A stretch of DNA of 64,000 bases from NCBI GenBank assembly GCA_036874045.1, contig JAZBRI010000010.1, forward strand, positions 2,004,001-2,068,000, given 5' to 3'. This stretch comes from Cymodocea nodosa (Eukaryota; Streptophyta; Magnoliopsida; Alismatales; Cymodoceaceae). Shown here in pieces: positions 994-49,222 of this stretch. Each line of letters starts with the position of its first letter. Position 1 is the stretch's first letter. The notes beneath the pieces were generated by a model. That model was not told the origin of the DNA and searched no databases. It was given only the letters and a program-made list of their open reading frames with translations. Both the position numbers and the translations under genes were made by a program.

Positions 994-1049
994 TATAAAA
1001 CAAAATTTAAAAGAGATAAAATTTAATAGCTACTTACAGATACCTTTGT

Positions 1050-1110
1050 GGAGTTAAGTCGTAACTCAACAAACTAAGTTCGTTAATTAATAACTCTACG
1101 ACACTACTAA
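1050..1110. repeat. GTTGAGTTA-type palindrome cluster (B, gag/F-box junction)
   Basis: Contains GTAACTCAAC followed by AAGTTCGTTAA and TAACTCTACG, diverged copies of the palindromic motif seen across all elements here. The equivalent sites in A (15487-15547) and C (39963-40025) also sit between gag and the F-box gene. Confidence 0.6.
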
Positions 1111-1189
1111 CTATAGCTTCTATTTTTTTCCTATATATTTTTCTACTTACTATAATATACATAGCTACTAATAATTATGCTGCCTTATT

Positions 1190-3398
1190 CAACTTCCCTC
1201 CCAAAAGAGGTATCAACTTCATTAACAGTTCTATTCAAAGGGTTCGATACTGCTTGAATTGGTAGTCCTCCTATAGGTCTAACTTCTATTGATTCCTTCT
1301 GTCTAGGAAGTATATTTCTATTCATGTTTTGATTCTGAATGGTAGTATTTCCAAACACATGATCTAGACGATTATTTAATTGTTGAATTATTTTTTCTAA
1401 TTTCTCTATTCTAGATCCTTGTTCAATTAATACTTCATAACTTGGATTTCTATCTTTTATATTTTCTCCTCACTGGAAATTGTTATTTCTCTAAGATAAA
1501 TTTGGGTGATTCCTTCAATTAGGGTTATAAGAATTAACAAAATTATCTTTCGGGTTTCTAGCATAGATAACATCTAAGTCATTCATATTTGTATTCTTTT
1601 CTGCTAGTTTTTGATTTAATGATAACTCTTCTATTTTTCTAGTTAACTCAGTTAATTTAACTTCAAGCATAGTGCTCGAATTAATTTCATGCATTCCTCT
1701 TAGCAATATTTTCTTATTTGTAATAGCTTCAATTGAGTTTTTCCATTGAGCAGTTCTTTTTGCAAAATTTTCTAAATAAGCCCATGCTTCCTCACTACAT
1801 AACTTCAGAAATCCATTCTAATAGGTAGATTCTAATAAAGATTTAGTTGAAATATTTATGCCTTCATAAATTATACCTATTAATTGTGTCTTATTTATTG
1901 CATGGTGTTGACATTGAGTTAATAAATCTTTAAATCGTTCAAAATATTTCTAAAATGATTCTCCTTATTTTGGCTACACATTAATATCTCCTTTTTCTTC
2001 TTAATCGTTTGATGAGTTGGATAATATTTTTCTAGAAAACTAAACAAAATTCAGTCCACATAGAAATTGAATCAAGAGCTAGAGTATATAGCTATATGTT
2101 TCGGTTGTTTGTAAAGTTAAATTAGAAAACCTATATTGTTCAATCAGATCTTGCCTATTGTATATATTAATAAATTCTTTTAAGAGAACAAACAACTTTT
2201 CACACAAATTAGATATTAAGTCCAATTTGTATTTTTAACTATAAGTACACAGCGTATATTGTATTTGTGTGCAAGTACAAGTTGATCCCATAGAGATTGA
2301 GTAAGAATTGTGTACTATTTTAATTTTTATACTAGAGTTTATATGTGTTCAATTAAGCACTTCATTGAGTTACTGTTAACTCAACGAACTTAGTTCGTAG
2401 AGTTACAGCTAACTTAACGAACTAACTTCGTAGACTTAAGTTAACTCCACGAGCCTACCTTTCCAGTTAAATGCTGCTATTCACAAAGGAATTTGACCAT
2501 CCATTAGGTGGTTCCACAGAATGTAAATAACATCAATTAAGCATTTTAATGTTAGTTAACTTGAGATTTGTCATTAATCAACACTAACATCCAGATATTT
2601 TGAATAGTAACCATTAAGATTTTTTTTTGTATTCTTGTACTAATCAATTTCAGTACTCTATAAATTACTTTTTATTTTTTGAATCAACTAAACATAAAAC
2701 ATTCACAATACTAACAATAATAACATTAATCACGATACAAAACAAATAATACAACACATTACTACTAAATGTAAACACAGATAATTAGTGTTTTGGTATT
2801 TTTGTTTTGATATGTTCTTGAAATTATACAGATTCTTTCATTAAGGCATATAATCATGCAATTATAACATAATGGCTTAATTTTCATATGATAAGCTAAA
2901 TATTATGCAATTAACCATTATTTAACTGTTAATATTATGTAGTTTTTATTCTAAACACTATCTTTTAGCTATGTCTTTTAAACCAAAGGGAATATATCTA
3001 AGTTTAATAACATCAATACTCATATTAGGCATTCTCATCATTTGACAAACTTCATTAAATTCTCCAAGGAAATAATAAATGTCTTCTCTTTCTAATCCAT
3101 GAAAGTGTGGTAATTGACTAATATAATTAGATTTCAATTCAAACCTATCTCCCTCAAAGTTTGGTAATCAAATACATGAAGGTTCATCTACTAATTTAGG
3201 GTAAAGAATTTCTCCTAATGGTTTTTCTACTAGAGCAACCATTTTTTCATTTTCCTCTAATGAAATGTTAACTACACCCCTAAGGATTTCGTTAAATTCA
3301 ATTTTAGAAATTTTTTTAGTATGCTTCTGTGTTAAATAACCCTATGTAGGTGTTTTGACTAATTGTTTAGTGCTAAGAGAATGAATCCATTTGCTCAT
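1190..3398 (-). pseudogene. gag: gag (capsid) of element B, split by a solo LTR
   Basis: The minus-strand coding region matches A gag (14039-15388). The capsid-type part is at 3398-2963 and 2091-1720; the region rich in charged residues with ending similar to YNPNWRNHPN is near 1706-1500, and a short coiled segment follows towards 1200. The family is Retrotrans_gag as in Athila, whose protein forms the particle shell. The gene is downstream of pol and ORF-X, which is unusual. It is broken, and a solo LTR sits inside it. Confidence 0.75.
2097..2957 (-). repeat. Solo gypsy LTR inside gag of B
   Basis: Begins TGTTTAGAATAAAAAC and ends ACA in minus sense, matching the start and end parts of the A LTR but much shorter (861 bp against about 2050). 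It is flanked by a near-perfect 5-bp target duplication: CTATC at 2958-2962 and CTATA at 2092-2096. The surrounding gag sequence resumes cleanly on both sides. No internal region remains, so this is a solo LTR left by recombination. Confidence 0.8.
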
Positions 3399-4060
3399 AA
3401 ACTCTCAACATATAATAAATTACAAAAAGTTAATTACATACCAATCTAATGTTTTGCTCTAAATGTGTAAAAGTTATTGACAAATGAACTTGAATTAGCT
3501 GTTTCTGCTTCCAGTTCTTCAACAAGTTCTCTTGTTTTTAGTCAATGCTGGTAACTAGTAAATAACATTCCATTTTGTTTTTATAATGCACGACCATATT
3601 GTAGATGCATCTCCTTGCAAGAATGTGTCTTGTAACATGCAGTATGATTCCTATATTTATGGATACATGCTCTACTTTTAAATTTAAATTTCAATAACCG
3701 CTAAACTCACGAAGTCTAGTTTGTTGAGAAAAAGAATAACCATTTAGCTAACTCCATAGACTAACTTCGTTGAGTTATAGATAACTCAACGAAATGACCA
3801 GGTTACTATTCTTAACTTAACAAACTAACTTCGTTGAGTTACAACTAACTTAATGGACTAGCTCAGGCTTCTATTTGCTAACTCCATGGACTAACTTGGT
3901 TGAGTTATAGACAACTCAATAGAGTGACCTTATATTCTATTACTGATTTCATGGAGTTAAGGTTAACTCCATGAACTAACTTCGTTGAGTTAACACTTAG
4001 ACAAATTTTCCTAAAAAACCTAGTTCTTATATTAACTTCTAATTTTCTTTCCTGTATATT
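3399..4060 (-). promoter_or_regulatory. B spacer upstream of gag: hairpin cluster and TATA-like box
   Basis: The spacer between ORF-X and gag of B. It holds a dense GTTGAGTTA palindrome cluster (about 3694-3990) and, on the minus strand near 3580, GCATTATAAA, matching the TATA-like site before gag in A. It is interrupted at 4060 by element A; the other half of the spacer resumes at 20575. Confidence 0.45.
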
Positions 4061-4407
4061 TGTTTAGAATGAAAAAGTACATAATATTAACAGTTAAATG
4101 ATGGTTAATTGCATAATATTTAGCTTATCATATGAGAATTAAGCCATTATGTTATAATTGCACTATTATATGCTTTAATGAAAGAATCAACATAATTTCA
4201 GGGAATTAATGTTAATTTAGTACATTTCTGAACTGTCGGTAAATTGCAGGGTGTGACATTCTTAAGTATCCGAATTTTCTATTATTTCAGAGAGCTTTGT
4301 TTAATGTACCAGACAGTTATGTTTTAAAGAATATTTTATTATTTCTTGAAATACACGTGTTGAAACCATAATGCATGACTTAAGTGGATTTTCAGTAAGT
4401 TATCTGT

Positions 4408-4443
4408 TAACTATCCGAAATGCATCTAGGCATCGGATAGTTA
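4408..4443. promoter_or_regulatory. U3 hairpin, arms TAACTATCCGA / TCGGATAGTTA
   Basis: Two 11-base arms are perfectly complementary, with inner ATGC/GCAT also pairing. A pair of related hairpins is in the C LTR at about 59870-59940. The same CGGATAGTTA motif recurs in the LTR inside Harbinger 1 near 24130 and in a tandem array at 43071-43195. It may be a transcription-factor or silencing target; no function is shown. Confidence 0.55.
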
Positions 4444-4866
4444 GGTTCGTAAGTGTCCAAAATATTTGAACTTGTTAAGTTAGAATTATGCACATGTTGA
4501 ATTTAAATGTTTTAGTATATCACGGGAGATGCACATGTTTAACTCATTAAGTTAGCATAATTATACGCATTGAGTTACATGAATACACACTAAGGTAACA
4601 CGTTATGTTAGCAACTTATTTCTTTATTGCACGTGTTTTATAGTTAAATCAACGAAGTAAGTTCGTTGAGTTATCTGTAACTCCACGGACCATTTAATTT
4701 CTAATATACCACTATAGCGGTTACAGAAATAGGACATTCGAAGGAAAACCACGATTGCATGTATCACATAGGAATTCACTCGTGGGAGGGAGAAGAAATC
4801 ACCATCATTGATCTGAATGAAGGAAATCCAACCGATCATCTAAAGTAGTAGTTACCACTAAAGAAA

Positions 4867-4874
4867 TATAAAAG
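4867..4874 (+). promoter_or_regulatory. TATA box of the A 5' LTR
   Basis: TATAAAAG, conserved in position in all related LTRs: 19323-19330 and 24520-24527 on plus, and 36177-36184 and 59603-59610 on minus. Transcription would be expected to start about 30 bases downstream. Confidence 0.6.
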
Positions 4875-6085
4875 AAGAGGAGAAAAAACGAAGGTGTGGT
4901 TGGAGGTGTGTGGCAGTGTGTGTAAAGGTGGAGAATCGCGCTAATTGCAGGCAGCGTCGGAAGTTCACTGAATCATCCACATCATCACCACCAATTCACC
5001 AACATCACCAACATTACCATAATCACCAACCATCGGAGGTCTATGAGGATACTTTCCTGATGTTGGGTTGATTCTAAGCCAAACATAGTGCCTAACAACC
5101 ACTGTGAGGAGTGATCACGTCACGGGAAGGGAAGCCATTTTCGCTAAGCACCGACTCATATCTCAGGAGATCGTAAAGCTTCTAGCCTTGGTTTTAGGTT
5201 GATGCTAGTACGCTGAAGAGGAGATCATCTTGCAATTCTGGACTGGCGATTCTATAGGGAGAGGAGGCAGAATTGTAAGTGATTAAGTTTTCAGTAGTGT
5301 AATCACATAGCATGTAGTGACAGAAGTATTTACTGTCGATAGAGATTTTTACATTTCACCTTTCGCCCATTTTCATGAACATCTCAAAACAAAAATACTA
5401 AAACAACAACTTATTTATGTTTATATTTAGTATTTAAGTGTTGTATTGTTCGTTTTGTATCGTGATTAAAGTTATCATTGTCAGTATTGTGAATGTTTTA
5501 TATTTGCTTGATTTAGAAAATAGAAAATAGTATTACAATTTACTGAAATCGATTTGTTCTAGATACTTAAAGATTTTAATGGTTATTGTTTGAAATATTT
5601 GAATGTTAGTGTTGCTTAATGATAAATCTAATATTAACTAGCATTAAAGAGCTTAATTGATGTTATTTACAATCTATGGAACTGCCCAATGGTTGGCCGA
5701 ATTTCTCTGTAAATAGTAGTATTACACTAGAAAGATAGGCTCATGGAGTTAACTTAACTCCACGAGATTAGTCCATTGAGTTAGTCATAACTCTACGAAC
5801 TTAGTTCGTTGTGTTAACTATAACTCAACGGAGTGATTACTGAACACATTAAGTATAATATACAAAATGAAACAGTACACAATTCTTACTCAATTCTCTG
5901 TGGGATCGACTTGTACTTGCACACAAATACAATATACACTGTGCACTTGTAGTTAAAATACAAATTGGAATTAATATCTCATTTGTGTGAAAGGTTGTTT
6001 GTTTACTTCTAAAAAGAAATTATTGATATAAGCATAAAGAAAAATTAATCAAGTTAAAAACAGAAGTTAACAAATACAAGTTAAT

Positions 6086-6169
6086 TGGTGTTGTTGCCTG
6101 GGAACCAAACAAGTTCTCTAGTGCCGCCTAAAGCAACCAAACAAGTTTTTCTGGCACCGTTGTTGGGAA
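6086..6169 (+). other. Primer binding site region of A with serial primer-site-like copies
   Basis: TGGCACCGTTGTTGGGAA at 6152-6169 resembles the complement of the plant tRNA-Asp 3' end, the usual Athila primer. A degraded copy (AGTGCCGCC) lies near 6119-6128, and TGGTGTTGTTGCCTGGGAA at 6086-6104 lies inside the LTR end. Each copy is followed or preceded by CCAAACAAGTT. The repetition suggests primer-site sequence has been added step by step to the LTR end. Confidence 0.6.
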
Positions 6170-6239
6170 ATTGAGAAGCTAAGCAACTGTAAATGCTGTT
6201 TTGTTTTAATAGCAAAAGTGTTGTGTGTTTTCTTCTATA

Positions 6240-6359
6240 ATGGAGAATATGGCATATGCTTGTGCTCAAAGATTTCTGAAACCTATAGTTAGCATATGTG
6301 AATTCTGTAATTTGGAAGGTCACGACATTTCTGATTGTTTGAAACTGAAACGATCGTAG
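6240..6359 (+). CDS. Short zinc-knuckle ORF (nucleocapsid-like) of element A
   Basis: 39 codons, starting MENMAYACAQRF. Residues CEFCNLEGHDISDC form a CX2CX4HX4C zinc knuckle, the nucleic-acid-binding motif of retroelement nucleocapsids. In Athila gag this knuckle normally lies just before the YNPxWRNHPN segment at the end of the capsid protein; here that segment (15030-15080) has no knuckle and the knuckle stands alone at the 5' end. The counterpart in B is near 34880-34790, minus strand. Confidence 0.65.
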   Translation: MENMAYACAQRFLKPIVSICEFCNLEGHDISDCLKLKRS

Positions 6360-7184
6360 ATGGTTAGATCACATGAACAACAAATGAATTATCTTCACTA
6401 TAATAGATCTAAGTATGAGAATCCTATGGTTTACCCAACTAATGGTCAGCTTAGAATGTGTAACATGTTAAGAGACAAGGAAGTTTGGGATAGGTATGAC
6501 AGACTGGAGTTTAGCATAGAGCAAAACATGGACAAATTGGAATAATTTATGTGTCAGCAACAAGAAGTCAACCAATTAAACTATAAGGAAGCATATTCAG
6601 AACCTAAAATTGATATCATTTACGAAACTGAAAAAACCATAATGAAAATTGATCAAAAATTGAATGCAATGAGATTAGATGATTTGGAAAGAAAACTAAA
6701 AGCATTGGACGAATATACAATGAAATTACAAGTTATGCAACAGGACAACACAAATGAAAATTATAATGTTATAGATTTGCATAATTTACAAGACATACGA
6801 ACAAAAGAAAATACCAATGCAAGAGAATTTAAAGAGTGCAATTTAAGACTAAAAACAGTTGAAGATCATAATCACAAAAATGATATACAAGAACATCAAG
6901 AAAGTAACGAAAATCTAAAAGATGTATGTATAGCATTAAGATCTGGAATTGATATACCATCAAGAATTCAAAACGAAAATAATATGAAGGTGGATAAGAA
7001 CAAAAACCAAAATGATAATGAAAATGTAATATCTGAAAATATAGAAATTAATGAAGAAAAATCTGAATCTGCAAATGAGACTAAAAATGATCAAACAAAT
7101 CAAATGAAAGAAAAAGAATATTTTAAATCACAGTTATTAGCACCCTATCCTGAAAGATTACAACAACCATTTCCTGAAAAATAA
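6360..7184 (+). CDS. Acidic, coiled-coil-like region between zinc knuckle and protease (A)
   Basis: The longest open part is 6549-7184 (211 residues). It is rich in Asn, Glu and Lys, with heptad-like stretches such as MKIDQKLNAMRLDDLERKLK and a C-terminal SQLLAPYPERLQQPFPEK that corresponds to the segment before the protease in Athila polyproteins (PFPxR). It is equivalent to the linker between gag and protease and binds nothing I can identify. The B counterpart is 33990-34720 on the minus strand. Confidence 0.55.
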
Positions 7185-10100
7185 GAAAAAATAAGAGAAA
7201 TTTTTGAAAAAGTACAAGTTAGCATTCCTTTGTTAGATTTATTGCAGAAAATGCCACCTTGTGCTAAATTTCTTAAGGATTGGTGTACTAAGAAAAGAGA
7301 GCGTAAAGTTTTAAGGAAAGTCTTTTTAGCTGCGCAAAGTAGTTCCCTATTTCTGCCACAAATTCCTAAAAAGTTATCTGATCCTGGAATCCCTGTTATA
7401 TAATGCACCATAGGAAATACCTTTCTAGAAAGAACCTTAATAGACTTAGGTGTAGGTATAAATGTTATGCTAAGTGATATATTTGCATCCTTAGGATTAG
7501 AATGCTTAATCCCTACTAGGACTGTTATTCAATTAGCTAATAGAAGTATAAGATACCCTAGAGGAAAAATAGAGGATGTCTTAATTAAAATCAAAAACTT
7601 CATATATCCTATTGATATTGTAATTTTGGATTCCCAACAAATTAAGCATAAAAATAGTGATACATCTTTAATTTTGGGAAGACCATTTTTAGCAACATCA
7701 GGGGCTGTTATTAATTGTAAAACTGGAGTAATGAAGTTAGCATATGGTAATGAGGATACTCAACTAAATATTTTCAAACCAGAAAAGTTTGAGTTAGAAA
7801 TGTCCTTACATACCATAGATTTTTTAGAAGATGAAGGATATATGCTAGATGATGTGATTCAAGAAGAGTTAAATAGGCAACTCAATTCTGAAACTTTAGA
7901 CGAAAGTGAAAGCATAAATATAAAAGGAGATCAGGAAGAAAATGAAGATGTTCAATTAGGAGCTCTAGCTTCTGATGGGCAGCAATTAGAATTAAAACAT
8001 TTACCTCTTAAATTAACCTATATATTTTTGGAAGAAAAACGAACATGTCCAATCATTATTGCTTCAGATTTAAAAGAGGATCAAATTGCTAAATTAAAAG
8101 ATGTAGTCAAAACTTATAAAGAAGTAATAGGATGGACTATGACTGATATAAAATGGTTAAGTGCAACTTTATGCTGTCACTACATATATTTAGAAGAGAA
8201 TGCTAAACCTATTAGAATTCCCAAGAGGAGATTAAATCCAAACCTTAAAGAAGTAGTAAGGAAGGAAATAGTTAAATGGTTAGATAATCACATAATTTAT
8301 CCAATTTTTGATAGCTCATGGGTTAGTCCAATCCATGTAGTTCCCAAGAAATCAATATTAACAGTTATTAGGAATGAAAGTCAAGACTTGATACCTACAA
8401 GAATTCAATTAGGCTGGAGAGTATGTATAGACTATAAAAAGCTGAATGCAGTGACTAGGAAAGATCATTTTCCCTTACCTTTCATAGATCAAATGTTAGA
8501 AAAATTAGCAGGGCAAGAATATTTTTGTTTCCTAGATGGGTATTCAGGATATAACCAAGTCCCAATAGCATTAGAGGATTAAGAGAAAACAACTTTCACT
8601 TGTCCTAATGGAACTTATGCTTTTAAGAGAATGTCATTCGAACTGTGCAACACACCAGTCACCTTTCAAAGGTGTATGCAAGGCATATTCACTAGAATGA
8701 CTGAAGATTTTTTAGAAATATTTATGGATGATTTTACTGTTTATGGAACTTCATATGAAGTGTGTTTAAACAATTTAGACCAAGTATTAAAACAGTGTGT
8801 GGAAAAAAATCTAGTTCTGAATTGGGAAAAATGTCACTTCATGGTTAAACAAGGAATAGTCTTAGGACATGTTGTTTCAAAGAAATGGTTGGAAGTAAAT
8901 AAAGTTAAAATAGAAATAATTTCTAATCTACCAAAACCTAAATCAATAAAAGATATTAGATCATTTCTAGGACATGCTGGATTTTATAGAAGATTTATTA
9001 AAGATTTTAGCAAAATAGCTAGACCTTTAACCAATCTATTAAAAGATGTCCCATTCAATTTTGATAAAAATTGCAAAGAAGCATTTTTCAAGCTTAAAAC
9101 TAGCTTAATTTCAACTCCTATAATTCAAGTACCTGATTGGAGCCATCCATTTGAATTAATGTGCGATGCATCTGATTTTGCTATGTGTTGGGATAGAAGA
9201 TAGAAAAATCTCCTAGAGTGATTCATTATGCAAGCAAAACCTTAAATGATGCTCAAGTTAATTATACAACTATTGAAAAAGAACTGTTAGCTATTGTGTT
9301 TGCCTTAGAAAAGTTTAGATCATATCTGATTAGAGCTAAAGTGATAGTATACATGGATCATTCGGCTTTAAAACACCTAATACCAAAAAAACAGACCAAA
9401 CCTAGATTGATCCGGTGGATATTATTATTACAAGAATTTGATCTAGAAATTAAAGATAAAAAAGGTTGTGAGAATGTAGTAGCAGATCATTTATCAAGAT
9501 TACAAATAGAAGAATTAAATATTGAAATTAAGGATAATTTTCCTAATGAACAATTAATGACCATCAACATAATGCCTTGGTATGCAAACATAGTTAATTA
9601 CTTAGTTACTGGTTTAACACCTAATGATTGGAATAGACAGGATAAGAAATTGTTCTTTTCAAGAGTAAAATACTACTATTGGGAAGACCCATACTTATTT
9701 AAGAAATGTCCTGATCTGGTTTTAAGGAGGTGTGTTCTAGAAACTGAATATCAGAGCATATTGTCTTTCTACCATGACCAAGCATGTAGAGGGCATTTTG
9801 GTTCAGGGAAAACTACTGCTAAAATTCTGTAATGTAGATTTTATTGGCCAACACTATTCAAAGATGCTCATAAATATTACTTAAGTTGTTTAAAATGTCA
9901 ACAAATAGAAAGAATATCAAAGAGGAATATGTTGCCTCTTAATCCTATTATTGAGGTTGAAATCTTTGATGTGTGGGGAATAGAATTTATGGGTCAATTT
10001 CCTACGTCTAATCAATTTAATTATATATTGTTGGGGGTGGATTATGTATCTAAATGGATAGAAGCTATTCCTACAAAAACTAATGACAACAAAGTGGTAA

Positions 10101-10878
10101 TACAATTTATAAGAACCAATATAATTACCAGATTTGGGATACCTAAAGCTATTATCAATGATAGAGGAACTCATTTCTGTAATAGAAGTTTGAAGCCTTA
10201 ATGAAGAAATATGGAGTAAACCACAAAATTGCAACATCATATCATCCTCAAACTAGTGGACAAGTAGAAAGTGCAAACAAACAAATTAAGTTAATCTTAG
10301 AAAAAGTAGTAAATCCTACTAGAATAGATTAGGCTAATAGATTGATAGATGCACTTTGGGCTTACAGAACTACTTATAAGACAAGCTTAGGTACGTCACC
10401 TTTTAGGCTAGTATATGGAAAAAGTTGTCATTTACTAGTTGAAATTGAACATAAAGCTTCTTGGGCATTAAAAACTCTAAACACTAATTTAAATTAAATT
10501 GTTGAAAATAGGAAAATACAATTGATTGAATTAAAAGAATTTAGGAATGAAGCTTATTCAAAAATTGTAAGAGAAAAAGAGAAAATGAAGTTCTAGCATG
10601 ACAAGAAAATTATTCCAAAAACCTTTGAAATAGGACAAGAAGTATATCTTTACATGACTATACTCCATAACCATCTAGGAAAATTAAGATCTAGATGGGC
10701 AGGACCTTACATAGTTCGAAATATTTATCCCTATGGAGTTATTGAAATTGAAAATCCTAAAAATCAGAATATATTTAAAGTAAATGGACAAAGACTTAGG
10801 CCTATTTTGAAAATACCAAAAAGTTCCTTTGGAATTATAGAAGAAGTAAGAGTAGAGGATTATTCAAGCTCCACTTAG
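7185..10878 (+). pseudogene. pol: pol of element A (protease, RT, RNase H, integrase)
   Basis: Protease about 7200-7780: LIDLGVGINVM and LGRPFLATSGAVIN. RT about 8200-8960: WRVCIDYKKLNAVTRKDHFP, then FLDGYSGYNQ, then the catalytic box FMDDFTVYG (about 8722-8748). RNase H about 9110-9500: [37 protein letters not shown]. Integrase about 9640-10520: HHCC finger ([11 protein letters not shown]), core DVWGIEFMGQFP and NDRGTHFC; C-terminal GPY-type segment RWAGPYIV in 10654-10878. Together these match Athila pol in motif and order. The polyprotein copies RNA to DNA and integrates it. The reading frame is broken in several places; the copy is not functional. Confidence 0.88.
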
Positions 10879-10919
10879 TAAGAAATTTTTTGAGTATAAA
10901 AAAAAAAACCTTATTTAAA

Positions 10920-11225
10920 TATAATCACGGTTAAACCGAAAGGAATTATCGGTTTTACCGAAATATATATTTTAAAAAGAAAAAAATTGTTGCGGTTTAA
11001 CCACAAGATCCATCGGTCTGACCAAAACACAAAAATATAAAAAGATATTTATATTATATTTAGTTTAATGTCAATGTTATCGAAGTATAGTATCAGTTCA
11101 GCCAATAGGAAAAAAATATATGTAATTTAGGTTCAACCAAGGAATATAACGGTTTGACCGAAAAGTTTTAAAGTGTTGAAAAAGTAAAATCGGCTAGACT
11201 GGAAATTCTTTGGTCTTGACAGAAA
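10920..11225. repeat. Tandem array of CGGTTTAACCG-type hairpins
   Basis: About five diverged units spaced roughly 65-70 bases (starting near 10926, 10993, 11065, 11130 and 11190). Each unit holds two short palindromes such as CGGTTAAACCG and CGGTTTTACCG separated by about 15 bases. Equivalent arrays follow pol in B (29820-30125) and C (42770-42905). Non-coding; function unknown. Confidence 0.6.
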
Positions 11226-11254
11226 AATTATTATTATTTGCATTTTTATTAGAT

Positions 11255-11425
11255 ATAACTTTACGAGAAGTCCGTTGAGTTACACGTAACTCAACAAACT
11301 TACTCCATTGAGTCTAAGATAAGTTAACGAATTTACCCCGTTAAGTTAACTCTAACTCAACGAAGTACTGTAGTTAAGTCCACAGACTAAGTCCATGGAG
11401 TTAACTATAATTCCACGGATGAGAG
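11255..11425. repeat. GTTGAGTTA palindrome cluster before ORF-X (A)
   Basis: Several units alternate GTTGAGTTA, TAACTCAACG and TCCACGGA variants. B has the matching cluster at 29620-29785 and C at 42585-42735. Confidence 0.6.
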
Positions 11426-11588
11426 AGCGAGAGTTTCGCATGGGAAGTGACCCAATTACCCGCCTAAACTTAGGGCTTATTTATACTAAACTTAGGGTTT
11501 GGGGGCATTCTCCACAGAATTATTTAGAACTTAGAATAGTAGAGATCAGAGCGATTCTATTCCATTGTGTAACTCCACAATGAGGAAG

Positions 11589-13078
11589 ATGACACCTGAG
11601 TTCTGGGAAAATGCAGTTGACATGTTAGAATTTCTTAAAGATTCAAAGGAATGGCACACGAGGCAGAAAACAGGAATACGACGAGGGAAAAAGAGCTACA
11701 AAAGGTAGAATCTGACCTTTTCTATTGGAGGAAAGAGTTAGTAGATTTGGGTATACAAATACCTTAGATAATGGAAACTAGAATCAAAGTTGCTATGGAA
11801 GCAACAAGAGCAAAGAGAAGAAGAAAAATAGGCTGAAACTAGTTTGTAGCCTATACAAGCAGAAGAAACAGAAGTTAGGGTAGAAGCTGATTTGCCCGTA
11901 ACTCCATCCCAATCTACCACAGAATCAGAAAGAACAATGACATTGCAGATTGGTAGTCAGGAGGAAGAAGAAAAAGAAGAAAATGAACAAAAAGCTAAAC
12001 AATTACATATGGAAAGAGATGACTCGACAGATTCCACGGAAGAGCGAAGAACTCTCAGTAAATTTTGGACAGTATTCAAGACAAAGTAGAGAGTTCTGCC
12101 AGCTCACCACCATAGACAAAAGAAGAAAAAATACAAGAATCTGCGGAGCATTTTCAGTTAGTTTAAGTTCAGCATATGGAAGAGGAAGTTCAAGAACAAA
12201 CCCCTCTAGAGCAACAAATTCACATTCCTGACCTGACTGAAACAATAGTTGTAAATGAAGTACATTTTTGGAGTTAGGAAGCTTATAATAAATACCAAGA
12301 GATAAGGGGTTGTGATATCATTTACAGTAGACCAGTAAATTTGGACAAAATGTAAGAAATCAAAGATTTATTTGAGTTCCAAGGTCTACTGCAGTTTATT
12401 TCTCAAGAAAGAGGACATGCAATGTATGAAAATCTAGTGCCCTGCTTTTATGCAAACGTAAGAGAAGGAGAAAGAGGATTAATTTCCAACATAGAGGAAG
12501 CTGATGTACAAATAACACCAGAGCTTCTCTAAAACATTCTAGGATTGAAAAATGAAGGACTAGAAATTCTAGAAAGCATAATTACAGTCATGTAGATAGA
12601 ACAGACCATAAAGGATTGTTTAGCTATCAATCCTAATGTGTCATTATTAAATAGACTAAAGCAATTAAATGGTAAAGCACACATGATAGCTAACATTTTA
12701 ATTAAGAATGTCAACCAACGACAAGACCATGATATAAAACTGAGTCAATTTGTCAAATGGGCCACATATGCAGTTGTGAACAGAATTCAAATAAATTGGT
12801 TTGTAGTTTTTATCTCCAAGCTGAGAACAGTGAAGAAGAAATTATTTTATGGAGATCTGATTCCACTACTGATGGTGGACTGTATCGATTTCACTAAATG
12901 GGCATCTAAAAGGATAAGATCTAGAATCATTTTAGTGAAAGAATATGGAAATTATGCTGTTGTAGAGATTACTGAACCTTTTGGAGGAGTTACAGGAGCT
13001 ATAGAAAGGATTAACCAATTAGAGCAATAAGTGGAAAGACTCTAGAAGGAAGTAGATGAACTTAGGAGAAAAGATTAA
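11589..13078 (+). pseudogene. ORF-X of element A (plant transposon accessory protein)
   Basis: The start follows the C copy, which begins MTLEFWEEVD; A reads MTPEFWEN at 11589. The N-terminal third is charged and helical, the middle is a Glu/Gln/Lys-rich linker (11900-12200), and the C-terminal 250 residues form a conserved domain with LFEFQGL, ITPELL, LGLKNEG, LLNRLKQLNGKAHMIANILI and NRIQINWFVVFISKL. The same C-terminal domain occurs in the copia element (55240-55972). It resembles what is annotated as putative plant transposon protein domain in Athila-type elements; I infer this from memory of the family. No membrane segment is seen, so it is unlikely to be an envelope protein. Broken. Confidence 0.6.
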
Positions 13079-14038
13079 ATTGTATTGTTCGTCTACTTGT
13101 ATATATTTGTATGAAAAATATCTGATTGATTGTAATGTAAACTATTCATATAAATGAATGTATATTTTTCAGATGTTTTTGCATTTATGTTTGAGAATGA
13201 TGTAATGGATGAATTATCTTGAATATTATATAATTGTTTGAACAAGACGCAAGATTGTTTAAAATATATACAAATTTTATGAATGACAGGATTAAATACA
13301 AGATAACTGGTTAATGCTGAAAATATCTGCATGCTGCAGAGTAAAATATAAATTCTGCATAATATGAAATGAATTGTAAGTTAAATATTTATACAATGTT
13401 TAGATTCAAATGAGTTTAATGACATGTATTTAACTTTATTTAAGTTAACAGAATGCAAGAGAGAAAAATATATAACTTAATACGAGGAGTAAGCTTAGAG
13501 GTTGCTAAGTATTAACTCAACGAAGTAAGTTCGTTGAGTTAACCTTAATTCCACGAAGTCAATAATATAATATAAGGACACTCTATTGAGTTATCTATAA
13601 TTCAACGAAGTTAGTCCGTGGAGTTAGCAACAGTAATTGAAGCTTGTCTGTTGAGTTAATTGTAACTTAACGAGGTTAGTTCATGGATTAAACTAAATGG
13701 TTATTCTTTTAGCCACGAACGAAACTTCGTAGATCTAGCGGTTATTAAAATTTGAAATTAGAAGTGACACACGTACCCATAAAAATAGGAACCGCACTGC
13801 ATGTTTTAAGACACGTTCTTGCAATGAGATTCATTTGCTTTATGGACGTGCATTATAAATATAGAACAGAATGTTATTTACGAGTTACCAGCACTTTTGA
13901 AAGAAAAGGAACTTCGTTGGGGAACTGGAAGGAAAAGCAGCTGATTCAACTTCATCCATCAACAACTATTTACTAAGTATAAAGCTTCAGACTAGTATGT
14001 AATTAATCTTCTATTAGTTTACTTTATGTTAAGAGTTT
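13079..14038 (+). promoter_or_regulatory. Spacer before gag of A: palindrome cluster and TATA-like box
   Basis: 13079-13500 is AT-rich with nothing recognisable. A GTTGAGTTA palindrome cluster spans 13503-13690. TATAAATATA lies at 13854-13863, about 175 bases before the gag start at 14039; the intervening stretch is less AT-rich and reads like a leader. B keeps the TATA-like site and the palindromes in the same place. This could be an internal promoter for gag and F-box, since both are far from the LTR promoter. Confidence 0.4.
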
Positions 14039-15388
14039 ATGAACACATGGATTCATTCTCCTAGCATTAAAAGATTTGTAAGAACACCTACACGGGATTC
14101 TTCAACACAGAGACGTATTGAAGTATTTTCTGAATTAGACTTTAACGAAATCCTTAGGGGCGTAGCTAACCTTTCATTAAAAGAGAACGAAGATATGGTT
14201 GCTCTAGTAGAGAAACCATTAGGGGAAATTCTGTATCTTGAATTAGTTGATGAACCTTCATGTATTCGATTGCCAAACTTTGAGGGAGATAGGTTTGAAC
14301 TAAAATCTAATTATATTAGTCAATTGCCACATTTTCATGGATTAGAAAGAGAGGATGCCTATTATTTCCTTAGAGAATTTAACGGAGTTTGTCAAATAAT
14401 GAAAATGTCAAACATGAGTATTGATGCTATTAAACTTAGATATATCTCTTTTACTTTAAAAGACACAGCTAAGAGATGGTTATATACTCTGTTGCCTGAT
14501 TCAATTTCTGCATGGACTAAATTTTACTCTATTTTTCTAGAAAAATATTATCCAACACATCAAACGATTAAAAAGAAGAAAGAAATATTAATGTGTAGCT
14601 AAAAATAGGGAGAATCATTCTAGAAATATTTTGAAAGATTTAAAGATTTACTGACTCAATGTCCACATCATGCAATGAGTAAAGCACAATTAATAAGTAT
14701 AATTTATGAAGGCATAGATGTTTCAACGAAATCTTTATTAGAATCTACTTGTCAGAATGGATTTTTAAAACTGTGTAGTGAAGAAGCATGGGCATATTTA
14801 GAAAACTTTGCTAAAAGAACTACATAGTGGGAAAACTCAGCTGAAGCTATTACAGATAAAAGAATATTGCCAAGGGGAATGCATGAAATAGATTCAAGCA
14901 CTATGCTTGAAGTTAAATTAACTGAATTAACAAAGAAAATAGAAGAGTTATCATTAAATCAAAAGCTAGTAGAAAAGAATGCAAACGTTAATGATTTACA
15001 TATTATTTATGCTAGAAACCAGAAAGATAACTTTGGAAATTCTTATAACCCTAATTGGAGAAATCACCCAAATTTATCTTGGAGAAACAACAATTTTCAA
15101 AGAGGAGAAAATATAAATGATAAAAATATAAGTTATGAAGCTTTAATTGAATAAGGATCTAGAATAGAGAAATTAGAAAAGATAATCCAACAATTAAACA
15201 ATCGTTTGGATCTTGTATTTGGAAATGCTGCAATTCAAAATCAAAATATAAATAGAAATATACCCCCTAGACAGAAAGAATCAATGGAAGTTAGACCTAC
15301 TAGAGGATTGTCAAAACAAGCAATACCTAATCCTATCAATAGAATAGTTAATGAAATTGATACCTCCTCTAGGAGGGTAGTTGAATGA
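14039..15388 (+). pseudogene. gag: gag (capsid) of element A, placed downstream of pol
   Basis: The open part 14039-14602 gives 187 residues including FELKSNYISQLPHFHGLERE, DAIKLRYISFTLKDTAKRWL and FLEKYYPTHQTIKKKKEI, the Retrotrans_gag pattern of Athila (FxLRDKAKxWLxSLPxxS). 14867-15154 has TMLEVKLTELTKKIEELSLN (coiled coil) and YNPNWRNHPNLSW, the segment that follows the zinc knuckle in other Athila gags; no knuckle is present here. 15155-15388 is the C-terminal tail. The position after integrase and ORF-X rather than before protease is the oddity. Broken in a few places. Confidence 0.82.
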
Positions 15389-15486
15389 AACAGAATAATT
15401 GAAGTAATTATGTATAATATAGTAAGCAGAAAAACATAAAAATATAAAAAGAAAAAAATGTAAATTTAATTATAGTTAGTAGTATC

Positions 15487-15547
15487 ATAGAGTTATTACT
15501 TAACTCAACGAACTTAGTCCATTGAGTTATGACCTAACTCCATGAGG
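15487..15547. repeat. GTTGAGTTA palindrome between gag and F-box (A)
   Basis: Contains TAACTCAACGAACTTAG followed by TCCATTGAGTTA: two arms facing each other with a 3-base spacer, then a third arm, CTAACTCCATGAGG. The same location is occupied in B and C. Confidence 0.6.
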
Positions 15548-15613
15548 ATGTGAAGTAGCTATGTTAATTTTGTCTTTGTTAATTTTTGTTTATGTTATAT
15601 AGAATCACAACAT

Positions 15614-16662
15614 ATGGAATTGATGAAATTACCACTGGATGCACTAAAGGAAGTACTGAGTAACCTGTCAGCTAAAGATCTGTACAGATTGTGTTGTGTA
15701 TCAAAGGAAATCAAAGATTGTGTTAGAGAAAAATATTTTCATGGACTACAAGCTGCAAAAATGACTAAGATTAGAGATGGATTTTTATGGAAGTCATTTA
15801 ATCGTAGTTCAATCTGCTATAATATCTGAATATGGAAGAAACTGCTAGAATTCCATCCAATACATTAAAAGGAATAGATCATATTATGGGGATGGATGAA
15901 GGATTAATTATATACAGAACCAAACCAAGGTATGCAATTCTATTACCCGACATTTTGATTAGAAATCCTATTACAAGAGAAGAATGGAATATAGGAAGGT
16001 CTAATAGATATGAAGTACCAACTTAAAATTGTGGGTCAACTTTAATATTTTCTGATAAAAATTCAACCATTCCTGAAAAATTATATTATTGGAGACCAGC
16101 TGGAAATTGGGATGAAGATTTATGCTTAAGTGTGTATAATTTTCTAAATAGATCTTGGACTGAAAATACTATGATATATCTAGGATAGAAATCATTAATT
16201 AACAACATGCATGTCATACTTAATGGATATATATATCTAGTCACAGATATATCAGTTGCATTTAGATCTAATTTATACATAGTAAGCATAGACAGTTATG
16301 ATGATTTTATAGAAATATTACCTATATCGAGTGATATAGCTAAACCACCAACTTCAAAATACGATCAAATTCAATTGGGAATGCGGTATAATGAATATGA
16401 TGATGCTACTTTATGTCTGATAAGATGATGGGATGAACTGAAGAAATTTCAAATATGGATTATGAAAGACCTAAATGAATGGAAGTGGGGAGAAGAATAT
16501 ATTGAAATAGATATAGAAATAGAAACAGCTACATTATCTTGGAACACAAGAGGATCCCTTTCTGCATTTCATTTCATTAATGGTAATACAGTTATATTTA
16601 GTATTGATAACATATTGCAAGTTTACAAGCTAAAAAGGAAAGCAAATTGCATTAAAACATAA
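15614..16662 (+). pseudogene. F-box protein gene carried by element A
   Basis: The N-terminus MELMKLPLDALKEVLSNLSA followed by KDLYRLCCVSKEIK is an F-box; IRNPITREEW begins an FBA-like region, and the C-terminal half (SVAFRSNLYIVSIDSYDDF, SLSAFHFINGNTVIFSIDNI) has the beta-strand-rich look of an F-box-associated domain. Full homology spans about 350 residues, normal for plant F-box/FBA proteins. Known family role: substrate receptor of SCF ubiquitin ligases. Located 225 bases after gag. Copies in B and C share the position. Broken in a few places. Confidence 0.78.
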
Positions 16663-16857
16663 TTAATAGCAAGAAGAATTATGCCTAAAAAGTTTGCATG
16701 GACTAACACGTTTATTCCATTTGTTACTACTTTTCAATCATGTTTTTAAACTATGATTTTGTGCTTTTAATGCTGTGTATTCTACATTTTTTTGAAAAGA
16801 AAAATTTTAGTTTTAGTTTTATTCTATAAAAAAAATATATATATATCAATCTAGTTT

Positions 16858-16933
16858 GTTGGTATCTGTTCTGGGAAACCAACTGGCTTGCTTGTGAGCC
16901 ACCAAAGGCATAGGAGCTTGGGTTCCACACAAG
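16858..16933 (+). other. Pair of conserved hairpins
   Basis: GTTGGT (16858-16863) can pair with ACCAAC (16878-16883), and CTTGTG (16891-16896) with CACAAG (16928-16933). In D both stems are kept. In C the second stem reads CTTGTG with CATAAG, which keeps pairing through a G-U pair. An RNA role such as packaging or splicing control is possible but unproven. Confidence 0.45.
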
Positions 16934-17166
16934 ACACTACTTTAACAAGTTAAATTGTTATTTTGTTATATACTTTGCTTTTATGTGTGAATGAAAAGTT
17001 TTTCAAAATCAAAAAATCAGAAGATATTGAAGGAGATACAAAAGGACGAGGTATGTATTTGATTACTTATCCTGAATTTACATTTCAACTAAGTTCGTTG
17101 AGTTAGATGCTAAGTCAACGAAACCATATTCATGGCTACTATAATTATTGTATTTATTGTAAAATC

Positions 17167-17209
17167 TTTTACATTGAGGACAATGCAAAATGTAGGTATA
17201 GGGGGGAGG
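17167..17209 (+). other. Hairpin followed by internal polypurine tract
   Basis: TTTTACATTG (17167-17176) pairs with CAATGCAAAA (17181-17190) around the loop AGGA, and AGGGGGGAGG follows at 17200-17209. The same arrangement is in C (38281-38332) and D (61615-61660). The TTGAGGACAATG plus G-run pattern is familiar from the 3' part of Athila-type elements. It may act as a second plus-strand primer. Confidence 0.5.
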
Positions 17210-17848
17210 TAATTAAAGTAACAACCATGTAATTTTGTTAATTAGAGGAATTAGAATGGTACTGCAAAAGTTCTGTCTATGGAAATTGAAAATTTTTTGA
17301 ACAAGAATTTGTTGTAACTATCCGATATTTGAAACTGTAAAATTTTTAAGAACTGTAACTACTTGAATGTTATATTTATAAGCTTATATAAGATGCTACA
17401 AATTTTATTATTCATACAAATCTAGATATAGTATCTTATGTTGTTGCTGAATTTTATGAGTTTAATAATTTCATGATTTTAAAATGAAATCAGAATGCTT
17501 AACTGAAACTCAATAAATTATCTGAAATCCTAAAAGAGCTGAAATGTTGATTTTTGGATTAAATGAAATACATATGATCAAGGATACATTTAATTTGATT
17601 GATTAAACTTGTAGAATGATTTATGTGTAGAGCTTATTAAACTACAGAAAAAGTATGAGCTTATTGACATGGATTCATATTTTCAGTAAATAATAGAAGC
17701 ATGACTATATGAGATTTGTATTTTATTGCATCTATATTAATGAAATATATACATATACTGTGTTGAAAAAAAAAAAAAAAAAAAACTTTGAGAGTTTATT
17801 GACTTGTTTGATCATGAGCCTTTTGTACTTGAGTAGATAGGTATGTAA

Positions 17849-17920
17849 GGATTGTTGACCTGAAAAAGGACTCTTTAAATCTAGCAACCTAAGATCCTGA
17901 TCAGATCTGGGATTGTTGAC
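17849..17920 (+). ncRNA. 72-nt repeat-and-hairpin motif shared by gypsy and copia elements (A copy)
   Basis: Starts and ends with GGATTGTTGAC (17849-17859 and 17910-17920). Between them CAAC (17885-17888) and ATCC (17894-17897) can pair with either flanking repeat, giving two exclusive stems. The span is 72 nt in all copies: C 37571-37642, D 60917-60988 and copia 52905-52976. Candidate RNA element by structure only. Confidence 0.45.
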
Positions 17921-18515
17921 TGAAAGCTCGATACATGGGTACACTAGAAAGCTCTTGTATAATTCAAGCTTGTCAAATTAACTTTTAAAGTACAAATATG
18001 CATATACTGTTTTGAAAAGATACAAGTGTTTTGTGAAATGCAAATATCTTTTGAATTGAGTATATGTTCTATTATCTAAAATTTCTGAAGTATGAATCTA
18101 GAATAAACTTTTGAAGTTGTTTATTTGAGATACAATTCTTTATTCTACTTGTCTTAATCATATTGAATTGGATTGTGTTTTGATTCGTATGTACTTGAAA
18201 TTTATTCAGGAAATCATATTGAAAAATTCAAGATGACAGATGCTGAAAAGAAGAACAAATGATAATATAATTAACACCTATGTGATGCTGATATATTTTG
18301 TATGTAATTTACATATATTCTAAGTATATTTGCAGGTTGAAGAGGAGAAAACAAAGTTAAAATAGATTACTGAAACATATAGAAAATCTATATAGTAATC
18401 TAATTTATTATTTTGAAGAAGAACAAGGTGAAGAATTAATTCTAGCACTTTAGAAAGACCAACTAATTAGATCTTAGTTTGCTAAGGGACTAGCAAAATT
18501 TAAGTATGGGGGAAG

Positions 18516-20574
18516 TGTTTAGAATGAAAAAGTGCATAATATTAACGGTTAAATGATGGTTAATTGCATAATATTTAGCTTATCATATGATAATTAAGCC
18601 ATTATGTTATAATTGCACTGTTATATGCTTTAATGAAAGAATCTACATAATTTTAGGGAATTAATGTTAATTTAGTACATTTCTGAACTGTCGATAAATT
18701 GCAGGCTGTGAAATTCTTAAGTATCCAAATTTTTTGTTATTTTGGAGAGTTATGTTTAATGTACCGGAAAGTTATGTTTTAAAGAATATTTATTATTTCC
18801 TGAAGTACACGTGTTGAAACCATAATGTATGACTTAAGTGGATTTTCGGTAAGTTATCTATTAACTATCAAAAATTCATTTGGGCATCGGATAGTTAGGT
18901 TTGTAAGTGTCCAAAATATTTGAACTTGTTAAGTTAGAATTATGCACGTGTTGAATTTAAATGCTTTAGTATATCACGGAGATGCACATGTTTAACTCGT
19001 TAAGTTAGCATAACTATACGCATTGAGTTACATGAATACACACTAAGGTAACGCATTATGTTAGCAGCTTATTTCTTTATTGCACGTGTTTTATAATTAA
19101 ATCAACAAAGTAAGTCCGTTGAGTTATCTGTAACTCCACGAACCATTTAATTTCTAATATGCCACTATAGCAGTTACAGAAACTAGGCATTTGAAGGAAA
19201 ACCACAATTGCATGTATCACGTAGGAATTCACTCATGGAAGGGAGAAGAAATCACCATCGTTGATCTGAATGAAGGAAATCCAACCGATCATCTAAAGCA
19301 GAAGTAGTTACTACTGAAGAAATATAAAAGAAGAGGAGAAAAAATGAAGAAAGTGTGGTTGGAGGTGTGTGGCAGTGTGTGTAAAGGTGGAGGACCGCGT
19401 TAACTACAGGCAGCGTCTGAAGTTCACTGAATCATCCACACCATCACCAACAATTCACCAACAACACTAACATTACCATAATCACCAACTATCGGAGGTC
19501 TGTGAGGATACTTTCCTGATGTCGGGTCGATTCCGAGTCAAACACGGTGCTTGACAACCACTGTGAGGAGTGATCGCGTCGCGGGAAGGGAAGCAATTTT
19601 CACCAAGCACTGACTCATATCTCAGGAGATCGTAAAGCTTCTAGCCTTGGTTTCGGGTTGATGCCAGTATGTTGAAGAGGAGATCATCTTGCAATTCTGG
19701 ACTCGCGATTCTATAGGGAGAGGAGGCAGAATTGTAAGTGATTAAGTTTTCAATGATGTCATAATCACATAGCATGTAGTGACGGAAGTATTTACTATCG
19801 TTAGAGAGTTTTACATTTCACATTTCGCCCATTTTCATGAACATCTCAAAACAAAAATACCAAAAACAACAACTTATTTATGTTTATATTTAGTATTTAA
19901 GTGTTGTATTGTTTGTTTTGTATCGTGATTAAAGTTATCATTGTTAGTATTGTGAATGTTTTATATTTGTTTGATTTAGAAAATAGAAAATAGTATTACA
20001 ATTTACTGAAATCGATTTGTTCCAGATACTTAAAGATTCTAAGGGTTACTATTTGAAATATTTGAATGTTAGTGTTGCTTAATGATAAATCTAATATTAA
20101 CTAGCATTAAAGAGCTTAATTGATGTTATTTACAATCTATAGAACCGCTCAATGGTTGGCCGAATTTCTCTGTAAATAGCAGTATTAAACTGGAAAGATA
20201 GGCTTGTGGAGTTAACTTAGGTCTACGAGATTAGTCCGTTGAGTAAGCCATAACTCCACGAACTTAGTCCGTTGTGTTAACTGTAACTCAATAGAGTGAT
20301 TACTAAACACATTAAGTATAATATAAAAAATGGAATAGTACACAATTCTTACTCAATTCTCTATGAGATCGACCTGTACTTGCACACAAATACAATATAC
20401 ACTGTGCACTTGCAGTTAAAATACAAATTAGAATTAATATCTAATTTGTGTGAAAGGTTGTTTGTTTACTTCTAAAAAGAAATTATTGATATAAGCATAA
20501 AGACAAATTAACCAAGTTAAAAATAGAAGTTAACAAATACAAGTTAATTGGTGTTGTTGCTTGGGAACCAAACA
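18516..20574 (+). repeat. 3' LTR of element A
   Basis: Direct copy of 4061-6111, starting TGTTTAGAATGAAAAAGT and ending GGGAACCAAACA. It carries TATAAAAG at 19323-19330 and palindrome clusters at 19101-19143 and 20208-20300. It is followed by ATATT (20575-20579), the target duplication, and then by B sequence. Confidence 0.88.
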
Positions 20575-21463
20575 ATATTATCAACATAAATACAGTTAAA
20601 TACATAAAATTAATTCAGCATTCAAATTAAACTTCATTTAATTTCATTTACTTCCAACCATAAATGTATATTTAATTCAAAATTCATTTCCTATTCTGCA
20701 GTAAACATAATTTGTTTTTTTCAATATGCAAATATATTTATTTGTTTTCCAAATCCTTTAGTATTTAATCATCTCATTCATAATCTTAATTTTTATTAGT
20801 GTTGTAATACTTCAAACAAATACATATATATTCAAATTTTTCAATAGCACTTTGAATTAATTCAATCGTTCACATTCATATAATTTGAAAAGCATATTAT
20901 TTGTCAAATAAACATATATATAATTTGCTTACATTACATACAATTAGATATTTTACAATACAAGTAGATAATTAATACATTTAATCTCTATTCCTTAATT
21001 CATCTACTTCCTTCTAGAGTTTTTCTAATTGTTGCTCTAATTGATTTATCTGTTCTAAAGCTTTTGATGTTTCTCCAGAAAGTCTTGCAATCCTAGTATC
21101 AACAACTACAATAGCAGTAGTATTATTTTTGTATTCCTTCACTGAAATGACCTTGAATCTCATCCTTTTTTATATTCATTTCGTGAAGTCAATACCTTCC
21201 ACCATCAGTAGTAGAATCAAATCTCCATCAAATAATTTTTCTTTACTACTTTGAGTTTGGAGAGTATTACTTTACACCAATTCAATTGAATTCTATTCAC
21301 AACTACATAAGTGGTCCACTTGACAAATTGACTAAGATCTATATCGTGGCCTTATCTTTGATAAATAGTCTTCACTAGTATAGTTACTACCATGTGTGCC
21401 TTGCCATTTAAGTATTTCAATCTATTAAGTAATGGCACACAAGGGTCACTAGCTATACACTAC
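20575..21463 (-). pseudogene. ORF-X of element B, C-terminal part, plus AT-rich spacer
   Basis: 20575-20950 is AT-rich spacer between gag and ORF-X of B with no gene seen. 20960-21463 reads on the minus strand as the C-terminal end of ORF-X, matching A 12600-13078. Homology stops exactly at the TTA that borders Harbinger 1 and resumes at 27908. Confidence 0.7.
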
Positions 21464-30205: not shown

Positions 30206-30229
30206 TGTAATAGGACCTTAGTAGTCCTC

Positions 30230-33930: not shown

Positions 33931-33989
33931 TTCTTGTTTTTCAGAAAATGTTTGTTTTAATCTTTCAAGATAGGGTGCTAATGATTGTA

Positions 33990-34895: not shown

Positions 34896-35039
34896 ATGAT
34901 AAAAACACACGACACTCCTTATACTAAGAAAAAAAAACAGCACTATAGTTATCTAGTTGTTAAGTTAAATCAAAAACTTGTCTATTCGGCGACACTAGAG
35001 AATTTGATTAGATCCCTTGCGGAGTCACCACAGAAAACT
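34896..35039 (-). other. Degenerate primer-site region of element B
   Basis: Between the LTR end and the zinc-knuckle start, with repeated AGTTTTCTG / ATTCTCTAGTGTCGCC / ACAAGTTTTT words, i.e. two or three eroded copies of the primer-site repeat seen clearly in C. Confidence 0.45.
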
Positions 35040-46760: not shown

Positions 46761-46762
46761 AG

Positions 46763-46774
46763 TGGTATCAGAGC
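46763..46774 (+). other. Primer binding site, initiator tRNA-Met type
   Basis: TGGTATCAGAGC, the standard plant copia primer site complementary to the 3' end of tRNA-iMet, two bases after the LTR end. Confidence 0.9.
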
Positions 46775-46961
46775 TTTGTTAATAATCTTTGATATAAAAT
46801 CGATACCAACTTATTTAATATCAATGTTTATTCTACCTTCCTTGTTTTTAAACAGAAATTAATATCTGAGCATACGTTTAACTCTATTGATTTAAGGCTC
46901 AAGTTGTTTTAAACCTTTTAGAATGTTTAAAATCAAATAGGTTGAAAAATCTAAGGTAAAA

Positions 46962-47567: not shown

Positions 47568-47617
47568 CAGCTTATGAAGTTCAATTAAATGAATCACTAA
47601 GTCACAACAAACTAAAA

Positions 47618-49219: not shown

Positions 49220-49222
49220 TTT

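Follow-up and report, generated by a model that had tools for sequence, protein, structure and literature searches.

To our knowledge, the order gag before pol is treated as fixed across long terminal repeat (LTR) elements and retroviruses, because the Gag-Pol fusion sets the excess of Gag and brings Pol into the particle. For plant Ty3/gypsy elements, the passages of a large survey that deal with domain order give GAG-PROT-RT-RH-INT (PMC6317226), and the description of the coding region of Diaspora gives a single gag-pol open reading frame (ORF) of 1892 codons with the zinc knuckle within gag (PMC1142308). According to its passages on filtering, the same survey always discarded elements with unexpected domain order as likely mispredictions (PMC6317226), so a pol-first order would be easy to miss there. 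Here we describe such an order in element A, a complete but decayed LTR element at 4061-20574 (plus strand) of a 64,000-nucleotide stretch of Cymodocea nodosa DNA (the window; contig JAZBRI010000010.1, positions 2,004,001 to 2,068,000). Our reading, to which we give a probability of about 0.88, is that A belongs to an Athila-like Ty3/gypsy clade with gag downstream of pol in several families. These pol-first elements are a new variant, common to several families and constrained.

From 5' to 3', A holds a zinc knuckle, protease (PR), reverse transcriptase (RT), RNase H (RH), integrase (INT), an ORF that we call X and a capsid (CA) gag, followed by F-box pieces, a 3' region and the LTR. A preliminary description of the window had placed the capsid-type gag after integrase and ORF X, and a lone knuckle before protease. 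The coordinates and order of the gag hold, and the knuckle pattern is confirmed, although the 39-residue knuckle piece has no Pfam match and is identified by its CX2CX4HX4C pattern. The F-box pieces were absent from that description. The parts of A are as follows:

4056-4060, left target site duplication, ATATT
4061-6111, plus strand, 5' LTR
6152-6167, plus strand, site TGGCACCGTTGTTGGG resembling a primer binding site (PBS), 0 mismatches, 40 nt past the LTR end
6240-6359, plus strand, start of the pol ORF with the lone CX2CX4HX4C zinc knuckle (knuckle itself 6297-6338)
6360-7184, plus strand, fast-evolving linker with LRSG motif, running to protease
7185-7900, plus strand, protease region
7902-9203, plus strand, reverse transcriptase (PF00078)
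9218-9832, plus strand, RNase H (PF17917)
9833-10875, plus strand, integrase (PF00665)
11112-13027, plus strand, remains of ORF X
13854-13863, plus strand, TATAAATA-type box 5' of gag (TATAAA in 9/9 copies compared; weak evidence)
14039-15388, plus strand, gag: capsid 14039-14866 (PF03732, E 1.2e-5) and C-terminal part, with several stops in A
15614-16659, plus strand, F-box ORF, frame-broken in A (PF00646, E 1.8e-10 on 15554-15826)
18501-18515, plus strand, polypurine tract (PPT)
18516-20574, plus strand, 3' LTR
20575-20579, right target site duplication, ATATT

The two LTRs, of about 2.05 kb, begin with TGTTTAG, end with AAACA and are 92.8% identical to each other (Kimura two-parameter distance 0.070, computed with ends one base off). 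As the preliminary description had claimed, A moved as one unit: ATATT stands exactly at both LTR ends, and an exact 5-mer match flanking A has a probability of 0.002 by chance. The TGGCACCGTTGTTGGG site is the final unit of a run of PBS-like repeats of about 33 bp that begins inside the LTR end; the PBS pattern has two matches in the window, and two matches occurred in 0/100 shuffles. Such units are repeated over the LTR end and leader at 6085-6170, at 58300-58395 and in a further copy (L015), and LTR 3' ends vary among copies, as though the border between U5 and PBS had moved. A palindromic motif of the AACTCAACGAAGT..CGTTGAGTTA kind also recurs in LTRs, pre-gag and post-gag sequence (4645-4690, 5741-5820, 13512-13690, 15485-15540).

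In the genome that we searched (G000; 374.6 Mb, 28 contigs), a first look turned up 3526 candidate places with the A capsid as query and 3989 with leader plus knuckle. The best 40 of each were scored; the pair counts below come from 40 scored places per search and include the reference copies. When the 10 kb 5' of gag were read in 20 copies of A's family (family 1), 16 had integrase, X and pre-gag on the same strand, three showed X and pre-gag and no integrase within the stretch read (one of the three, L016 with L041, is interrupted by a family 2 element), and one (L019) was cut by an inverted copy. Pairs of gag and 5' ORF of family 1 on the same strand within 25 kb have gag downstream in 10/10 cases, at 5.5-18.2 kb, and those of family 2, within 16 kb, in 23/23, 19 of them at 4.02-4.08 kb; no opposite-strand pairs were found within these distances in either family.

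The preliminary description had named two findings that would speak against its account, intact relatives with gag before protease and a second full gag 5' of pol that would make the 3' gag a duplicate, and neither appeared where we looked. Eight of the 20 stretches include a family 1 protease (in L011 as an inverted copy), and a same-strand capsid lies 5' of it in 0/8. In L023 the gag C-terminus 5' of protease belongs to the preceding copy and is followed by that copy's 3' region, and in L042, upstream of L025, the capsid is on the opposite strand. LTR, leader and knuckle follow one another without interruption in L014, L015 and L020, as do leader and knuckle, with nearly the full query matched, in 40/40 scored places. 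Nowhere in the stretches examined did a second full gag precede pol. One apparent gag-first place (C14/L046), where family 1 pre-gag, CA and gag C-terminus are joined to linker and protease, is most simply explained by a deletion that removed sequence between tandem copies.

A second family has pol and gag in the same order. The family 2 copy that we read (on contig C19) is 13.3 kb long and interrupts the family 1 copy L016. Its identity to A is 45% in CA, 51% in PR, 62% in RT and 54% in INT. Its LTRs are 96.7% identical, with target site duplication GTTAA, a PPT and the PBS TGGCATCGTTGCCAGGG 6 nt past the LTR. The order is knuckle-PR-RT-RH-INT-gag: the 5' ORF starts MDEFSFDL and holds a knuckle at the N-terminus of Pol, and gag begins about 0.2 kb past the integrase frame, with its own knuckle in the ordinary place. 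No match to ORF X or the F-box was seen in this copy. The start of the unit is fixed by A and family 2, because both bear target duplications.

These results bear on whether nesting, tandem arrays or assembly could have produced the order artificially, by setting the gag of one copy next to the LTR and pol of the copy that follows. Such an account could draw on elements B and C of the window, which share LTRs in a tandem array, and on the gag-pol join of L046, itself best read as a deletion. However, the target duplications of A and family 2 sit exactly at the LTR ends (chance about 0.002 each), the spacing of pol and gag is nearly constant in 19/23 family 2 pairs, and the order is found in different families, one of them with open frames. 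We give this account almost no weight: gag truly follows pol in these elements, the arrangement was mobilized as a unit, and it is more than a local accident.

We also probed G000 with two gag-first database proteins, P0008 (Apium graveolens) and P0013 (from a JGI source), scoring the best candidates only. Of the 53 matches of P0008, 12 cover gag only and 39 PR only; of the 55 matches of P0013, 35 cover gag only and 18 PR only. The remaining two of each probe fall at one and the same place. Thus 104/108 matches, from lists that share places, are gag-only or PR-only, and the other four fall at one secondary deletion in family 1. Many of the gag-only places, of about 454 residues, are listed without a stop, and five P0008 matches begin at residues 426-427, just ahead of LRSG. 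A third family emerged here: in L044 an uninterrupted RT-RH-INT frame is followed, after 0.3 kb, by an open 454-residue gag frame with capsid, a knuckle minus its final cysteine and YNPSW, and L047 has the same start. At the PR-only places L045 and L048, pol begins MD and carries a knuckle, complete in L048 and one cysteine short in L045; L049 and L050, two decayed copies of a further family, carry a tandem pair of zinc knuckles where pol begins. No capsid was matched in the 1.6-1.9 kb 5' of pol in L045, L048, L049 or L050. Two P0013 protease matches (C13 and C1) extend into gag and seemed gag-first; none of nine gag queries matched the DNA upstream of them (L049, L050).

Within the window, B and C lie on the minus strand in a tandem array that runs 3' part of a copy (62054-60319), LTR, C, LTR, B:

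30213-36974, minus strand, element B, part 1: LTR 36974-35048, knuckle 34891, protease to integrase (30221)
1-4000, minus strand, element B, rest: pre-gag 4000-3399, capsid 3398-2961 and 2091-1707, gag C-terminus 1706-1188
36976-60318, minus strand, element C: LTR 60318-58425, PR-RT 58296-57226, RT-INT 45167-43293
element C, continued, minus strand: X 42319-40389, gag C-terminus 40391-40119, 3' region to 36976

B has the order of A, interrupted by insertions: A itself (in the pre-gag stretch of B), a solo LTR in gag that splits the capsid, and other sequence. Its ORF X lies at 29373-27991 and 21459-21032, and its F-box region starts within 1-4000 (minus strand). C keeps INT, X and gag C-terminus, is interrupted by the Copia element E (45157-57232) and has lost most of CA, the knuckle and the linker. 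The preliminary description had given both B and C the order of A. B and C alone cannot fix the start of the unit because their LTRs are shared in the array. The stretches 62283-63689 and 22157-22821 are presumably pieces of PIF/Harbinger-type transposases; a DDE_Tnp_4 match was seen at 62283-62777, the only piece of the two stretches that was scanned.

The gag of family 1 differs from that of the other families in its knuckle. In A and B about 32 alignment columns, knuckle included, are absent ahead of YNPNWRNHPN, and no knuckle was found in 7/7 family 1 gags (A included) in which this motif was found, of 8 loci; the preliminary description was right that the motif is kept and the knuckle gone. 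Its further view, that the knuckle had simply been left at the 5' end, is not supported in that form, as family 2 has knuckles both in gag and at the start of pol and the family 3 gag keeps one. Given these knuckles and the double knuckles at the start of pol in L049 and L050, it is more likely that capsid and knuckle were separated by a later loss in family 1. A stop codon at the C-terminal end of gag is common to A, B and C. An AlphaFold model of A gag (predicted local distance difference test score 72) adds little because its top Foldseek matches, dArc1 capsids, reach only a non-significant E of 1.4. In A, a stretch of about 1 kb without a long ORF separates X from gag, and X is about 0.7 kb longer in several other copies. 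The F-box ORF after gag is more open in other family 1 copies (L033, L034, L039), with PF00646 at E 7.2e-11 in L033, and it shows weak to moderate constraint. A light search of the literature for F-box genes in LTR elements found none.

To place gag and pol, we built protease trees from 75/105 database proteins (at least 190 of 238 residues covered), the main one without six long-branch rows (P0079, P0082, P0085, P0086, P0090, P0092). In the main tree A, B, P0004 and family 2 form one clade (100/99), next to a group of P0009, P0011, P0012, P0016, P0018 and P0055 (99/83), and after that come four Apium proteins including P0008 (100/99). P0011 has YNPxW and LRSG in one frame, the ordinary layout; the other five of its group were seen without their 5' side. 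P0004, a protein from a 2.2-kb metagenome contig, begins with a knuckle whose first cysteine is at residue 20, as in A, its start being the source's prediction. In the gag tree (matches covering at least 85 residues, P0092 excluded), A, P0001, P0003 and family 2 group together (97/96), family 3 joins them (91/87) and gag-first P0008 is next (100/100); an earlier tree with P0092 grouped A, P0001, P0003, family 2 and P0008 alike. No relatives were found in viral-contig scans or in a plasmid search. The compatibility of the two trees makes it probable that gag and pol have a common history and that gag moved inside one lineage. An alternative, in which an unrelated element supplied the 3' gag by capture, might appeal to ORF X and the F-box gene, which suggest that the lineage acquires foreign 3' genes. 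It is highly improbable, given that gag and protease trees recover the same groups and gag-first Apium proteins are close in both.

How, then, could gag have come to lie 3' of pol? We propose that the order arose once, when gag was duplicated and the second copy came to lie 3' of pol; the 5' copy would then have lost its capsid and kept its knuckle, and the 3' copy would have lost the protease side. In family 1 the knuckle of gag would later have disappeared, and ORF X and the F-box gene would have been added. A rearrangement without duplication, either as a physical move or as a circular permutation (for example by template switching between tandem copies that places the LTR inside gag), is unlikely. 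It would account for a gag ORF ending about where the LRSG-protease part starts, and for the two ORFs of family 1 jointly holding capsid, knuckle, YNPNW, LRSG and protease once each. Yet family 2 has knuckles in both ORFs, and a single cut would not put the family 1 knuckle on the side of YNPNW where it stands. The two knuckles of family 2 are better explained by duplication with partial losses than by a clean split.

In our reading, the 5' ORF is an independent Pol (zinc knuckle-linker-PR-RT-RH-INT) and gag a separate 3' ORF, ending about where an ordinary gag-pol would continue into LRSG and protease. Pol may be translated from unspliced or leader-spliced RNA and may enter the particle via its own RNA-binding knuckle rather than as a Gag-Pol fusion. 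We infer that gag is translated from a separate mRNA, which could form by splicing of a leader donor to an acceptor just 5' of gag, clearest in family 2; in family 1 an internal promoter may serve instead. By our approximate matrix, the predicted leader donor of family 2 ranks 3/748 and its gag acceptor 2/883, with no ATG between acceptor and gag start. The leader of L045 has a donor of rank 1/163 and an acceptor of rank 2/167, and that of L048 an acceptor of rank 3/129. In L044, 15 ATGs lie between pol and gag, which argues against simple reinitiation.

In A-B comparisons (transition weight 2.5), the ratio of nonsynonymous to synonymous change (dN/dS) is 0.32 for gag (0.24-0.45) and 0.32 for pol (0.26-0.40), which indicates equal constraint. 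ORF X gives 0.42, and non-coding pseudo-frame controls give 0.66-1.22. The constraint on gag suggests that the 3' gag was most likely in use while the pol-first order existed. The knuckle ORF is closed on its 5' side by in-frame stops in both A and B. The two also share stops in knuckle and linker, from which a 39-residue knuckle mini-ORF was considered and dropped; we take these stops as decay because several other copies read through.

Several observations weigh against our reading. The lists of 40-55 scored places are no census, family 3 was read from RT to gag, without LTRs or 5' end, and families F4, F5 and F6 were seen as 5' ends only. The family 2 copy is broken, with stops in both frames, and the family 1 gags read, from 8 loci, all lack a full open frame. 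Six other proteins, not gag-first P0008, are nearest to the pol-first proteases; a quick protease tree without family 2 placed P0005/P0010 next instead, long branches were flagged in both protease trees, and the branch parting P0008 from the pol-first gags has only 91/87. The A-B dN/dS of knuckle and linker (0.70; 0.50-1.04) is indistinguishable from neutral, that of the F-box (A-B 0.63, 0.45-0.95; A-C 0.43) is weakly distinct from it, and the interval for pol in A-C (0.53; 0.39-0.74) overlaps those of the controls. As to expression, our splice-site ranks come from an approximate matrix; in family 2, 16 ATGs lie from the LTR end to the leader donor, so gag would not be the first ATG on the spliced mRNA, and the pol acceptor ranks only 13/883. 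A has no strong acceptor just 5' of gag, family 3 has a modest one only, and a TATA-type box is common in AT-rich DNA.

Two of these points, the lack of open gag frames in family 1 and the nearly neutral knuckle and linker, would also suit a 3' gag that is an inherited passenger, with particles built in trans by the gag of gag-first elements. We consider this improbable, since A-B constraint on gag equals that on pol, the family 3 gag is open in L044, as are many of the gag-only places listed, and the 108 best-candidate matches include no gag-first relative save one rearranged place. There is also a wider possibility, on which we would put just short of even odds: the order may uncouple Pol from Gag, with a knuckled Pol made first from genomic RNA and Gag from a spliced subgenomic mRNA, like env. 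The capsid of one family would have ceded its knuckle to Pol, and the added F-box protein may counter host silencing, against which the polerovirus F-box protein P0 acts.

The reversed order is old enough for a split into several multi-copy families. A lineage that lives with it in this way would show that the coupling of Gag and Pol can be abandoned, and raises the question of how stoichiometry and Pol packaging are solved. In a light search of the literature on gene order in LTR elements we found no pol-first element.

By their hallmarks (paired TG..CA LTRs, PBS, PPT and target duplication), A and family 2 are LTR retrotransposons, and their pol has the Ty3/gypsy order PR-RT-RH-INT, without gag ahead of protease. 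A resembles Athila, Calypso and Diaspora (Ty3/gypsy, OTA) in its protease, RT, integrase and gag sequences, LTRs of about 2 kb, CX2CX4HX4C knuckle and extra ORF past integrase; protease and gag fall inside a set of Athila-like plant proteins, in trees built without named Athila, Tat or Ogre references. The Athila trait of a knuckle in gag is absent from family 1 and present in family 2. In its account of clade-specific domains, the plant survey reports that an additional RNase H marks the Tat clade and that Athila ORF-1 (PF03078) lies 3' of pol in 16% of Athila elements (PMC6317226). In the pieces of A scanned, which cover X in part, Pfam matched a single RNase H region; no PF03078 match appeared in the parts of X at 11950-12231, 12638-13030 and 12596-13027, a domain that the majority of Athila elements lack as well. 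Unlike Diaspora, with the single gag-pol ORF of its published description, these elements have pol first and gag as a separate ORF. The closest sampled gag is that of P0008 and its Apium relatives (100/100), also near in the protease tree, yet P0008 is one 874-residue protein, capsid and protease together, with gag first.

More distant systems share single features. Element E has a homologue of ORF X (37-41% amino acid identity to that of A), which matches PF20167 weakly (E 0.014, under the curated cut-off), and a stretch 77% identical in DNA to the 3' region of A. This sharing suggests that 3' modules were exchanged between Ty1/copia E and Ty3/gypsy A; E differs by its Ty1/copia pol and by having gag first, and from such 3' ORFs we take it to be Sirevirus-like. 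E 53856-55972 and 52611-53404 correspond to A 12356-13027 and 17566-18336. The Ty1/copia elements BARE1 and Evade separate expression of Gag from that of Pol by splicing, and our elements would resemble them in an mRNA of their own for gag, whereas the gag of BARE1 and Evade stays at the 5' end. In foamy viruses Pol is made apart from Gag and is packaged via RNA; the likeness to our elements lies in a Pol separate from Gag, and the difference in the foamy virus order gag-pol-env.

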